Part shown: positions 17,171-24,339 of the stretch, piece by piece
Layout of the letters: each line of letters starts with the position of its first letter
How positions within the stretch are numbered: position 1 is the first letter of the stretch
Source of the DNA: Cryomorphaceae bacterium
GTDB taxonomy: Bacteria; Bacteroidota; Bacteroidia; Flavobacteriales; Schleiferiaceae
NCBI GenBank assembly: GCA_002682945.1
Contig: NYSL01000016.1
Location: 70,993-118,254 of the forward strand
Direction of reading: 5' to 3'
Length of the DNA: 47,262 nucleotides
Notes under the pieces: model-generated
What the model saw: the letters and a program-made list of their open reading frames with translations, nothing else
What the model was told of the DNA's origin: nothing
Databases searched by the model: none
Position numbers and translations under genes: made by a program

Positions 17171-17989
17171 TTATTCTTCAAAAGGTAAAAGGTCATAGGC
17201 TACTAATTCAAAACCTTCAGATTGATATCTGTTGGGTTTACTGAAATGGTATAGGTCTCCAAAGGGTTCCCTCTCGAATAATTTGATTTTAGGAAACTCC
17301 AATGAATTTTGAATCAAATTATTATCCGATAATAAAACACATTGAATAAATGAATTTCCTCGTGTGAAAATAATCATCCTAAAGCCTTGTTTATTTTGAT
17401 TTAAATAGTTTTTAAAAGCCAATACATAAACATCTAAGCTTGAATTAATGATTTCTTCAGGCAATTTATTTTTATCAATTTTTTGAAATTGAAATTTTTT
17501 AAGGTATTTCTTAAAAACGACCCAAAATGCTCCAACTCTTTTTTTATTTAAAAGTTTCACTAATGCTTTTTCGGGCCAGGAGTCTCTTACAAATCCAGAG
17601 GAGGTTACATTCCCATGAATAATTATTGCAGAATACTTTTTTGACAATCTTCTTACCGGCGGAGCAGATTGATCTTTGAACGTCAAATCCATATGAGTTT
17701 TTCCAATTTTTTCTCCTTGTAAATTTCTCAGTATGCTTCCCCCGATTAATTTATTTCCACTTATTGAATTTTTTTCAACCAAAACTCTTTTCTGAATTTC
17801 ATATCCGCCATCAATAATTTTTGCACGAACTTCTGTACTATCATTAAGTTGGAAAGCTGTTAAGTCGTCAATAGTTATATTGGCCCAATCATGAACCCAC
17901 TGACCATTAAGAGGGCTGTATGAGAAAATGAAACTTACAAAAAGTAGTGAAGTTTTGATTTTTTGAATTGAAGTAAAAATATGATTCAT
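17171..17989 (-). CDS. Secreted protein of unknown function
   Basis: I do not recognise this 272-residue protein. An N-terminal signal peptide (hydrophobic TSLLFVSFIFSYSPLNGQ, likely cut around residue 30) is followed by WVHDWANITIDDLTAFQLN, a stretch that may be beta-rich, and a Lys-rich middle (KKYLKKFQFQKIDKNK). There are almost no cysteines and no lipobox, so it is probably periplasmic or outer-surface. A GTG at 18002-18004 would add 5 residues; I prefer the ATG at 17987-17989 because it leaves a normal signal peptide. It lies 49 bp after the LuxE-like gene and 16 bp before DUF2461, within the same operon. Confidence 0.7.
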   Translation of the reverse strand: MNHIFTSIQKIKTSLLFVSFIFSYSPLNGQWVHDWANITIDDLTAFQLNDSTEVRAKIIDGGYEIQKRVLVEKNSISGNKLIGGSILRNLQGEKIGKTHMDLTFKDQSAPPVRRLSKKYSAIIIHGNVTSSGFVRDSWPEKALVKLLNKKRVGAFWVVFKKYLKKFQFQKIDKNKLPEEIINSSLDVYVLAFKNYLNQNKQGFRMIIFTRGNSFIQCVLLSDNNLIQNSLEFPKIKLFEREPFGDLYHFSKPNRYQSEGFELVAYDLLPFEE

Positions 17990-18038
17990 ATTAAATTTGA
18001 CCACAGTATTATTTATCTATTTCAATGACAATTTTTGA

Positions 18039-19025
18039 TTAATTGGAATTTATTGAAAGTAATGAACATCCTCTTTGATCAGACCCATCAATTCTACCAA
18101 GAACTTCAAAATTACCATTTTCATGTACTCTACCCATATCGTCAGTAGCTAAAAATGCGCACGAGTCTGAGTTGGCAAGATCAATTATGTTCAACCCGCA
18201 AATTTCTCCAACATTCGAAAGTGACAATGGTGTTTCTATCGACCTCGGGAGAACTAACATTTGTGAAGGGGTTGAAAACAATCCTTCCTTAAAACTATAA
18301 GCTTGTGATAATAATTCCGTCATTCCATATTCGGAATGTATTTTTTTTGTGCCAAAAGAGGAATTCAACTTATGGTGAAGTTCTTCTCGAATAGGTTCTT
18401 CTCTTCGGCCTTTCATTCCGCCAGTTTCCATAATTATAGTATGATTTAAGTTCATCGGATTTTTGATAGACTCAGCTAAGTCTAAAAGAGCAAAAGTGAC
18501 TCCTAATAGAATTGTTGGAACTCGATTAAGATCAAGATTTTCAAGTCTGTATTTTAATTCATCTATTCCTTTAACGAAGAACCCACTTTCATTATGGTTG
18601 GAAATAGAGATAAAGTACTCTGCCATATCTATTAGAGAAGATCCAGATCTATCTAAATACCCGGGGAGAAGACACAGCCATGCATAATTCTTAACTGGTC
18701 CATAAAAACTTTCAAAACACATTTGCGCATTTCTCAGATATATATTTTTATTGGAGACAAAATGCTGAGAATTTATGGCCCCACTTGATGTATATACAGT
18801 ATCGGGAGTAAAAGAACCAGTAACGACTTTTTGAGATTTAAATGCTGTGATTGGCAAAAACGGAATGGATGTTAAAGTATCTATGGCATTTATTTTTTCA
18901 TCTCCCCAACCCAAAGATTCTAACCATGTCTTGTATATTTTATTCTCGCGAGCTTGGTGTTTGAACAGTTTGATGGCCAAATTTTCAAAACCCTTTTCAA
19001 TAAATGGGTAATGTCTATGACTCAT
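18039..19025 (-). CDS. LuxE/PaaK-like acyl-protein synthetase family protein
   Basis: A 328-residue protein of the adenylate-forming LuxE family. Seen are FLPITAFKSQKV near residue 55, a Ser-rich phosphate loop YTSSGAINSQH, the block METGGMKGRREE, SEYGMTELLSQAYS (the adenylate-binding Y-G-x-T-E core) and an ATDDMGRV-plus-LGRIDGSDQRGCS end resembling the A8-type hinge. LuxE itself activates fatty acids as acyl-AMP and transfers them to a cysteine; Bacteroidota single-gene versions have no known substrate. Its start overlaps the DUF4296 stop by 4 bp, so it belongs to the pyrC operon. Confidence 0.8.
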   Translation of the reverse strand: MSHRHYPFIEKGFENLAIKLFKHQARENKIYKTWLESLGWGDEKINAIDTLTSIPFLPITAFKSQKVVTGSFTPDTVYTSSGAINSQHFVSNKNIYLRNAQMCFESFYGPVKNYAWLCLLPGYLDRSGSSLIDMAEYFISISNHNESGFFVKGIDELKYRLENLDLNRVPTILLGVTFALLDLAESIKNPMNLNHTIIMETGGMKGRREEPIREELHHKLNSSFGTKKIHSEYGMTELLSQAYSFKEGLFSTPSQMLVLPRSIETPLSLSNVGEICGLNIIDLANSDSCAFLATDDMGRVHENGNFEVLGRIDGSDQRGCSLLSINSN

Positions 19026-21516: not shown

Positions 21517-24339
21517 ATGAATCAACCAAGACTTTATCTTCTGGATGCTTATGCTCTTATTTTTAGAGCTTATTTTGCATTTGCCAAGAACCCTCGAATC
21601 ACAAGTAAAGGACTGGACACATCAGCTATTTACGGTTTTGTTTTGGCATTATTGGATGTTTTAGAAAAACAGGACCCAACTCATATAGCTGTTGTGTTTG
21701 ACATTGGCGGCAGCGCTTCCCGATTAGAAATATTCCCGGAATACAAGGCTAATCGGGATGAAACTCCAGATGGAATAAAGGTTGCTGTTCCGATAATTCA
21801 CAAATTTCTCAAGGCTATGAATATTTCAGCTTTGGGTGTAGAGGGTTTTGAGGCAGATGATGTTATTGGAACTCTCGCTAAAAAGGCGGAGAAGTCGGGT
21901 TATGATGTTTTTATGATGACTCCCGATAAAGATTTTGGTCAACTTGTAACTGATAAAATTAAAATGCTTCGGCCCAAAAGAGGTGGGGAGCCTGCCGAGA
22001 TCTTGGGACCAAAAGAAATTTGTGAGAAGTGGAATATATCGAGAGTTGAGCAAGTCGTAGATGTTCTTGGGCTTATGGGTGATTCTGCAGATAACATTCC
22101 AGGAATTCCAAGTGTTGGACAAAAAACTGCGGCGAAATTATTAACGGAATATGATTCTTTGGAAGGAATTCTTAAAAACTCAGACAAAATAAAAGGCAAA
22201 CTTGGTGAGAAAGTTAGAGAATTTGGGGATCAAGGAATAATGTCAAAATCCCTTGCAAAAATCATAATTGATGTCCCTATTGATTTTAATGAAAAGGATT
22301 TAGAGAAAAAAGAACCTGATGAAATTGCCTTGGAAAGTTTACTTCAAGAATTAGAATTCAAAAGTCTTTCACGAAGGTTACTAAAACGTGAAATAGAATT
22401 AAAAAAGCCAAAAGATTCGATTAAAGAGACTTCAAAGCCAATTCAAGCATCTCAAAAAATTGGACAGATGGACCTTTTTTCCGCGGAAAATTCTCCAGCA
22501 TTAAAACCGCAGGAGAAACCTGTACCTGTACAGAAGAATGATTATGTTATTATAGATTCATTGCAATCCGCCAAACTGCTAAGAAATAAATTGCTTCAAC
22601 AAGACTCTTTTTGTTTCAGTACTCAGATAGTGAAATCGGAGGTAGGTAGAAATTATCTTTCGGGTATTGCTTTTAGCTATGCGCCGAACAGAGCTTATTA
22701 TGTCCCACTGGGCAATGCTGCAGATGAGGATTATACAGATTTATTGGAATTCCTAAAAAGTCCGTTAGAAGAAAATTCCATAATCAAAATCGGGTATGAC
22801 TTGAAATACCAAAAGCAAGTTCTCCGTGATCAAGGGGTTACTATTGGCGGAGTATTTCACGACACTATGGTTATGCATTATCTCTTAGAGCCAGATAAAC
22901 GTCATACCATTCAATATTTGTTTGAGACATATGTTAAGGATTCTTTGGGCTCAAAATACTTAGCCCTAATTTCTGATGATAACAGAAAAAGAGATTTTTC
23001 ACTTGATAGTCTTCCAGTATCAGAATTGTTAATTATTAAGAGTGAAGAAGTTGATTTTCTATTTCAATTGTCACTTATTCTAAATAAACGAATCAAGGAT
23101 TTGAATCTTGAAAGACTCTATTATGATATTGAAGCTCCTTTAATTAATATTCTCTCCAAGATGGAGTCATCAGGAGTTACCGTTGATATCAAAGGTTTAT
23201 TTAATTACTCTAAGGAGCTTGGCGTTGATATGAATGGGCTTGAAAGTGATATACATAGTATCGCAGGAAAGAATTTTAATTTAGGTTCTCCGAAGCAATT
23301 AGGCCAAGTGCTATTCGATGAATTAAAAATTGGAAAAGGCAAAGTAAAAAAAACAAAAACAGGCCAGTATGCTACTGGAGAAGAAGTCCTGGAAAAGCTA
23401 TCTAAGGACTATGAGGTTGTCAAGAAACTTTTGGATTGGCGGCAGTTAGGAAAATTAAAAAGTACTTATGTCGATTCTTTACCCCTACTAGTAAATGAAA
23501 AAACAGGTAGGATACATACTACATTTAATCAAGCAGTTGCTTCAACAGGTAGATTATCAAGTACAGGCCCCAATCTTCAGAATATACCCATTCGCACAAC
23601 AAATGGGAAAAAAGTAAGAAAATCATTTATTCCAAGAGACCCTAATCACGTTTTATTTAGTGCGGACTATTCTCAAATTGAATTACGTGTAATAGCCTCC
23701 ATGAGTGGAGACGAAAATATGCAAGAAGCGTTTTTAGACGGGGATGATATTCATATAAAAACTGCGTCAAAAGTATTTAATGTTCCAATAAATGAAGTTA
23801 CAAGAGAGCAAAGGGGAAATGCAAAAACAATTAATTTTGGAATAATATATGGAGTTTCTGCTTTCGGTCTTAGTCAGCAATCTAACCTTTCACGAACCGA
23901 AGCAAAAGAAGTAATTGACAGTTATTTCATCTCATACCCAGGAATTAAAAAGTATATGGAAAACCAAGTCTCTTTTGCTAGAGAAAATGGTTTTGTGGAG
24001 ACATTAATAGGTAGAAGAAGGTATTTAAGAGATATAAATTCTCCGAACAGGGTAGTTCGTGGTCATGCGGAGCGAAATGCAGTTAATGCTCCTATACAGG
24101 GCACTGCTGCAGACATCATGAAATTAGCTATGGTTGGCGTTTACGATAGAATGAAGAAAGAGGGATTTAGATCAAAAATGATTATTCAAGTACATGATGA
24201 GTTAGTCATAGATACTTTGAAAAGTGAATTAGAGGAATTGAAGGTTTTAGTGATTGAAGAAATGGAGAATGCATATAGGCTTGATGTGCCCCTTGAGGTT
24301 GATACGGGATTTGGAACTAATTGGTTAGATGCTCATTAA
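21517..24339 (+). CDS. polA: DNA polymerase I with a degenerate 3'-5' exonuclease domain
   Basis: A 940-residue family A polymerase. The 5' nuclease domain (residues 1 to about 290) is intact: LLDAYALIFRAYFAF, GFEADDVIGTLA, TPDKDFGQLV, DSADNIPGIPSVGQKTA. The polymerase domain has motif A DYSQIELRVIASM, motif B RGNAKTINFGIIYG and motif C QVHDELVI. The middle 3'-5' exonuclease domain keeps its fold but not its metal ligands: Exo I D-x-E is S368-T-Q370, the Exo II Asp is Q432 (LKYQKQVL), and the Exo III region IIKSEEVD (506-513) lacks the usual Tyr and has Glu for Asp. So polymerase and flap-nuclease activity are expected, proofreading is not. It is a single-gene unit, divergent from the mannose synthase. 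Confidence 0.96.
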   Translation: MNQPRLYLLDAYALIFRAYFAFAKNPRITSKGLDTSAIYGFVLALLDVLEKQDPTHIAVVFDIGGSASRLEIFPEYKANRDETPDGIKVAVPIIHKFLKAMNISALGVEGFEADDVIGTLAKKAEKSGYDVFMMTPDKDFGQLVTDKIKMLRPKRGGEPAEILGPKEICEKWNISRVEQVVDVLGLMGDSADNIPGIPSVGQKTAAKLLTEYDSLEGILKNSDKIKGKLGEKVREFGDQGIMSKSLAKIIIDVPIDFNEKDLEKKEPDEIALESLLQELEFKSLSRRLLKREIELKKPKDSIKETSKPIQASQKIGQMDLFSAENSPALKPQEKPVPVQKNDYVIIDSLQSAKLLRNKLLQQDSFCFSTQIVKSEVGRNYLSGIAFSYAPNRAYYVPLGNAADEDYTDLLEFLKSPLEENSIIKIGYDLKYQKQVLRDQGVTIGGVFHDTMVMHYLLEPDKRHTIQYLFETYVKDSLGSKYLALISDDNRKRDFSLDSLPVSELLIIKSEEVDFLFQLSLILNKRIKDLNLERLYYDIEAPLINILSKMESSGVTVDIKGLFNYSKELGVDMNGLESDIHSIAGKNFNLGSPKQLGQVLFDELKIGKGKVKKTKTGQYATGEEVLEKLSKDYEVVKKLLDWRQLGKLKSTYVDSLPLLVNEKTGRIHTTFNQAVASTGRLSSTGPNLQNIPIRTTNGKKVRKSFIPRDPNHVLFSADYSQIELRVIASMSGDENMQEAFLDGDDIHIKTASKVFNVPINEVTREQRGNAKTINFGIIYGVSAFGLSQQSNLSRTEAKEVIDSYFISYPGIKKYMENQVSFARENGFVETLIGRRRYLRDINSPNRVVRGHAERNAVNAPIQGTAADIMKLAMVGVYDRMKKEGFRSKMIIQVHDELVIDTLKSELEELKVLVIEEMENAYRLDVPLEVDTGFGTNWLDAH

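Follow-up and report, generated by a model that had tools for sequence, protein, structure and literature searches.

Bst, the large fragment of a Bacillus Pol I, is a natural exonuclease-deficient enzyme in which some ligands are missing and the activity is absent, and M. smegmatis Pol1 likewise is not known to have exonuclease activity. Previous work on 3070 complete genomes reported that about half of Pol I orthologues carry DEDDy substitutions, and described inactivation of the exonuclease as 'largely phylum-specific' and 'unrelated to genome size' (PMC12926913). The Pol I of H. pylori (HP1470) keeps the domain while D355, D424, and D501 are missing, and the purified enzyme is without mismatch editing; the same source cites E. 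coli work in which loss of the Pol I exonuclease gave a lagging-strand-biased mutator (PMC3121766). Passages of PMC11253446 on this lagging-strand-biased effect give no figure for it. For the genus studied here, or for Flavobacteriales, we found no report of Pol I exonuclease loss in a listing-level search of mainly open-access literature.

The window, by which we mean the whole 47,262-nucleotide stretch of Cryomorphaceae DNA analyzed here (GC 0.349), lies on contig C23 of a small 1.65 Mb genome (a 44-contig draft, 95.3% complete). It carries a polA gene, to which no second Pol I match exists elsewhere in the assembly. The product runs from a 5'-nuclease through an exonuclease-like to a family A polymerase domain (Pfam, NCBIfam) and thus belongs to Pol I. 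The nearest named relative among the genome contigs, the MAG 'Owenweeksia sp. TMED14', has a PolA that is 93% identical. Two adjoining ORFs of 277 and 328 aa (17174-19025, minus strand) had no Pfam match at E 1e-5. The features of polA are as follows.

21517..24339, plus strand: polA, full-length DNA polymerase I, 940 aa (ORF; NCBIfam PRK05755.1 and TIGR00593 above cut-offs; Pfam domains)
21529..22323, plus strand: 5'-nuclease (FEN-like) domain, catalytic positions kept (PF02739, residues 5-172; PF01367, residues 177-269)
22543..23100, plus strand: 3'-5' exonuclease domain, predicted fold kept, catalytic site degenerate (residues 343-528; PF01612 at residues 344-497, 27.8 bits against a cut-off of 23.6; structure model)
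22618..22626, plus strand: Exo I, S368 and Q370 replacing D355 and E357 (alignments, phmmer; beta strand in the model, model residues 40-49)
22798..22812, plus strand: Exo II, D428-x-K430-x-Q432 replacing N420-x-K422-x-D424 (alignments; helix in the model, 105-114)
23035..23049, plus strand: Exo III, I507 and E511 replacing Y497 and D501 (alignments; helix in the model, model residues 177-204)
23197..24327, plus strand: family A polymerase domain, catalytic positions kept (PF00476, residues 561-937, E 2.8e-160)

In two separate MAFFT alignments with E. coli K-12 PolA (L149), the five DEDDy positions D355, E357, D424, Y497, and D501 were paired with S368, Q370, Q432, I507, and E511 of the window enzyme, so that none of the residues of a proofreading Pol I is present. 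D355 and E357 are ligands of the main metal. A phmmer search against PDB chains placed S368 and Q370 opposite the D-T-E of Klenow (or the A-T-E of a mutant) and Q432 opposite D424. An earlier note on this DNA had proposed exactly these five pairs, within coordinates 22612-23080, which span residues 366-522 and do hold all five positions; its further statement that the domain length is kept while the proofreading residues are gone from an otherwise intact gene is borne out by the alignment. The residues at the site were identical in an independent MAG (L069, a G100-type sequence, 93% identical).

The rest of the enzyme looks intact, as had also been claimed. Nine 5'-nuclease positions (D10, D62, E112, D114, D115, D137, D139, D189, and D192) and twelve polymerase positions (R679, D717, E722, R766, K770, F774, Y778, N857, Q861, H893, D894, and E895), which we take to be catalytic, are identical to those of E. 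coli. An AlphaFold2 model of residues 325-940, built from an input of 54 window and locus sequences, had a mean pLDDT of 92.5 and a pTM of 0.91; blocks of the exonuclease domain mostly reached pLDDT 81-98, except around model residues 151-170. S368 and Q370 were modeled on a strand, and Q432 as well as I507 and E511 in helices. TM-scores were 0.79-0.92 across the 50 Foldseek matches listed, which consist of Pol I enzymes (Bst, Klenow, M. smegmatis, and Taq-type). The exonuclease fold of the window PolA is therefore predicted to be intact, and the residues together with this predicted fold point to a Pol I with a probably inactive exonuclease domain.

Compared with described enzymes, the window PolA shares its domain order and its 5'-nuclease and polymerase catalytic residues with E. 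coli Pol I but has all five exonuclease positions replaced. Its architecture, including a folded exonuclease domain, is that of the Bacillus large fragment, the top Foldseek match; unlike that case, the loss in the window falls inside one genus. M. smegmatis Pol1 (PDB 6vde), from another phylum, has E at the place of D428, K and D at K430 and D449, and A at Q432 (phmmer). Mismatch repair and translesion polymerases are both missing from H. pylori (PMC3121766), whereas MutS and a single Y-family gene are present in the window genome. Because inactive Pol I exonucleases are common (PMC12926913), the window polA adds to a known kind and is not a new kind of system. The change is well supported and of an ordinary type, but its history is unusually recent and repeated.

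Close relatives keep the exonuclease center, which makes it possible to say when the loss occurred. A search of the genus covered 22 genomes, 19 of which had a PolA match; the exonuclease positions were readable in 18. Alignment of these relatives placed the loss of the motif within the genus: DEDYD was present in 12 of the 18 readable genomes, and absent from the window genome (G000), G100, G102, G117, G118, and G119. In a PolA tree made from the 5'-nuclease and polymerase domains, with the exonuclease domain removed, the window genome and the four related genomes that share its loss (G100, G117, G118, and G119) form a clade whose sister group consists of six intact genomes; G102 branches elsewhere. 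The MutS and concatenated trees grouped the intact G099, G103, and G113 with these five, to the exclusion of G102, with 100% support, and PolA and MutS concur on the placing of the window clade. Forcing the degenerate enzymes of the genus into one clade was rejected (delta lnL 25.4, AU p = 0.012; IQ-TREE, with MutS, PolA, and concatenated trees), which rules out a single loss, with the caveat that G102 is on a long branch and that nodes near it have 40-46% support with PolA alone. The two-loss reading assumes that regain of five exact residues is implausible, as we consider it to be. We conclude that the loss is young and repeated, having occurred in two lineages within the genus. Descriptions of inactive Pol I editing domains usually treat them as traits of whole lineages; here there are at least two losses inside one genus of uncultured bacteria.

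Beyond the genus, the final alignment held 141 Bacteroidota rows and E. coli, drawn from 239 loci (numbered to L239). It left out 80 genome_contigs loci (L069-L148), many of which duplicate other genomes in the set and which were read separately (L069-L071 degenerate, the other 77 DEDYD), as well as partial pieces and duplicates (including L047-L049, L189, L203-L205, L207, L208, L230, L231, and L236-L239), a gene with stops (L221), and a broken one (L209); L202 was dropped from the tree. DEDYD was incomplete in 42 of the 141 rows. In one of these, G309, only E357 had changed (to K), and this row is not among the 41 used for residue counts below. That Bacteroidota Pol I mostly keeps D-x-E, as the earlier note had held, is correct, but loss recurs: 41 of the 141 rows are clearly degenerate, a count that is not a frequency since the sample was partly picked for low scores. 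The degenerate enzymes form 13 maximal clades, or 11 without G127 and G066, two MAGs that may be chimeric (several PolA pieces, contamination 5). L214, L216, and L218 (family f22, in the same class as the window; G377, G498, and G462) have lost the site in genomes of 4.2-4.3 Mb.

A profile of 25 intact exonuclease domains was also run over 296 Flavobacteriales genomes, with 49 further genomes without a match standing outside the listing; of the 93 genomes of the order with a PolA match, 80 were read as sequence. The E-values left a gap: complete domains that the sequence shows to be intact reached 7.6e-65 or better, and degenerate domains did no better than 6.8e-48. Of the listed genomes larger than 2.0 Mb, just two, G013 and G144, in which PolA is broken at contig edges, scored weaker than 1e-60. 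The profile derives from relatives of the window, so in a 392-genome phylum set its scores do not separate intact from degenerate domains outside the window's class.

The degenerate domain has not been left free to drift. Where dN/dS was computable for degenerate pairs (n = 13), it was 0.12-0.30 in the exonuclease domain versus 0.03-0.10 in the polymerase domain. For the ratio of exonuclease dN to polymerase dN, the 13 degenerate pairs had a median of 3.29 and the intact pairs, of which there were 23, one of 1.61 (p = 3.2e-6, Mann-Whitney), the pairs being hand-chosen, with some sharing genomes, and the ranges overlapping (2.3-10.5 and 0.25-3.2). Thus, the degenerate domain is relaxed yet still under purifying selection. 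The loss had been described as 'targeted'; a site has indeed been lost from an intact gene, but the dN/dS values are better described by a catalytic site that decayed within a retained scaffold. Among the degenerate rows, D355, E357, and D501 were kept in 0 of 41 and D424 in 4 of 40, and K422 and D441 were kept in all 41 and Y447 in 38. The position of E. coli N420 was N in 99/99 intact rows and D in 26/41 degenerate rows across separate clades, a contrast whose Fisher value ignores ancestry. From these residues, N-to-D at position 420 appears to be a convergent mark of inactivity, and it may reflect a structural adjustment in a domain that has ceased to bind metal.

Our preferred reading, to which we give a probability of about 0.86, is that the window encodes a Pol I with a working 5'-nuclease and polymerase whose exonuclease site was lost, most likely by relaxed selection, the domain now being structural. 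Without its two-metal catalytic site, the domain would persist in the Klenow fragment as a structural element, and the enzyme would still carry out primer removal and gap filling but leave its own errors unedited. Judging from the replaced residues, 3'-5' exonuclease activity is probably absent. The site would have been lost once on the stem of the five-member clade, with separate losses in G102 and several further Bacteroidota lineages. Relaxation, not adaptation, is the most likely cause, since the retained fused DnaQ proofreader and MutS would make Pol I editing dispensable. DnaE of the genus (about 1450-1500 aa; L240, on contig C32 of G000, and L272-L287) carries an N-terminal DnaQ-type proofreading domain, and all three motifs of this domain were found in 15 of the 16 members looked at, the exception being G100, where a pattern search missed the first one. 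A MutS-family match was present in 80/80 genomes (76 over the curated cut-off) and a MutY-family match in 37/37 (24 over the cut-off), the window genome being over the cut-off in both. UDG was present in 36 of 37 genomes and was not found in G119, a 79% complete MAG. For the window clade, which keeps MutS, MutY, and UDG, we rejected the idea that mismatch repair, MutY, or UDG had been lost alongside the exonuclease.

Alternatively, the loss could have been adaptive: a non-editing Pol I would extend mismatches and bypass lesions better, and might be selected for damage tolerance where translesion polymerases are few. H. pylori Pol I offers a precedent (PMC3121766), and a Y-family gene was not found in 6/24 degenerate versus 3/55 intact genomes (Fisher p = 0.020), a comparison in which a small number of genomes, G036 and G084 included, were classed by profile score and not by sequence, and which leaves out G028. 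These counts ignore ancestry, several of the assemblies are 84-89% complete, and within genomes of 2.0 Mb or less the difference shrinks to 6/22 versus 3/26 (p = 0.27). Furthermore, a Y-family gene was detected in 70 of 80 genomes overall, though not in G102, and 18 of the 24 degenerate genomes, the window's included, keep it. Replacement of Y-family polymerases is a weak candidate. We regard adaptive loss as unlikely.

Base composition changed along with the site. In the window clade, GC3 of polA is 0.24-0.27, compared with 0.54-0.81 in the 12 intact congeners and 0.58 in G102; in MutS, DnaE, and DinB it is 0.24-0.29 versus 0.41-0.86 in the intact congeners read. Within the genus set L031-L046 and L206, the AT-rich window clade and the GC-richer members have similar assembly sizes, 1.4-1.8 Mb. 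The exonuclease loss and the GC3 shift fall on the same stem of the window clade. Because G102 lost the site at a GC3 of 0.58, loss does not need an AT shift, and AT-rich families can keep the site (mean GC3 of 0.29 in the intact rows of f15 and f3). Branches with GC3 below 0.30 hold a share of only 0.17 but received 5/6 losses (p = 0.0008); with cut-offs of 0.35 and 0.40, the p values were 0.014 and 0.029. None of these values is adjusted for the several thresholds tried. In sister contrasts, GC3 was lower in the lost member in 10/13 (p = 0.033), in 8/11 without G127 and G066 (p = 0.083), and in 5/6 in the unselected sample (p = 0.063).

For genome size, 5/6 losses in the unselected sample without G127 and G066 fell on branches of 2.0 Mb or less, which make up 0.38 of the at-risk length (p = 0.032); the value was 0.057 at 2.3 Mb, and with the two MAGs the count was 6/8 (p = 0.039). 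We see in this a weak trend toward association of small genomes with exonuclease loss. Genome size as the cause was rejected, as sister contrasts revealed no difference in size (lower in 7/13, p = 0.31) and losses also occur in the f22 genomes of 4.2-4.3 Mb. As a conjecture to which we give only small odds, erasure of the Pol I proofreading site could be a recurrent step in AT-rich Flavobacteriales reduction that feeds back on base composition, with the dead domain re-stabilized convergently by N-to-D at position 420. If so, this step would be invisible to gene-presence surveys, and in the window genus it would share its branch with a genome-scale AT shift despite retention of MutS, MutY, UDG, and the replicative DnaQ.

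A related proposal is that exonuclease loss raised the mutation rate and so helped to drive the AT shift and faster protein change in the window clade. On the shared stem, GC3 of polA fell from a sister-clade mean of 0.64 to 0.26, with the low values in MutS, DnaE, and DinB as given above, and for four proteins, with in-genus outgroups, more changes were unique to the lost members than to their intact sisters (for example G000 versus G113: MutS 104 and 46, PolA 108 and 31, DnaE 120 and 64, DinB 52 and 11). With G042 as outgroup, however, the difference was gone for MutS (63 and 63) and weak for PolA (70 and 47, p = 0.042), and outgroup GC can itself produce such an asymmetry; we therefore claim no mutator. 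Given also the GC3 of G102, and that a coincidence on one branch is one event, we consider a driving role improbable.

It is very unlikely that the domain remains active through relocated acids (D428, E510, E511, and D513). Position 428 carries an acid in each of the five lost members, where 12/12 intact congeners have N; along with E419, it is the only exonuclease-domain column that is acidic in all five and in fewer than 30% of intact congeners. The carboxylate of E511 at the place of D501, the retained E510 and D513, and the new D428 four residues before Q432 may allow weak residual metal binding. Nevertheless, the places of D355 and E357 are S and Q, and the same N-to-D change occurs in degenerate enzymes whose other ligands differ, which looks more like structural repair. 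Assembly error or acquisition of a foreign exonuclease-less polA can practically be dismissed: the window genome is a draft, but the loss is common to four other MAGs, the PolA and MutS trees agree on the clade, and the intact congener G113 has polA and the two genes upstream of it in the same order and at near-equal lengths.

The change is of interest for its matched sister clades and because it coincides with a strong AT shift. The intact sisters have genomes of about the same size and provide matched pairs in which the worth of Pol I editing could be gauged through mutation spectrum, lesion bypass, and base composition. Scoring polA simply as present overstates the fidelity functions kept in small genomes.

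Two observations concern family f16. L212 (G309), with its single change at E357 and the four other residues kept, may represent an early stage of loss. In nine genomes of about 0.6 Mb (G028, G038, G047, G055, G063, G071, G078, G086, and G094), the PolA match covers just the 5'-nuclease part, in ORFs of about 300 aa.
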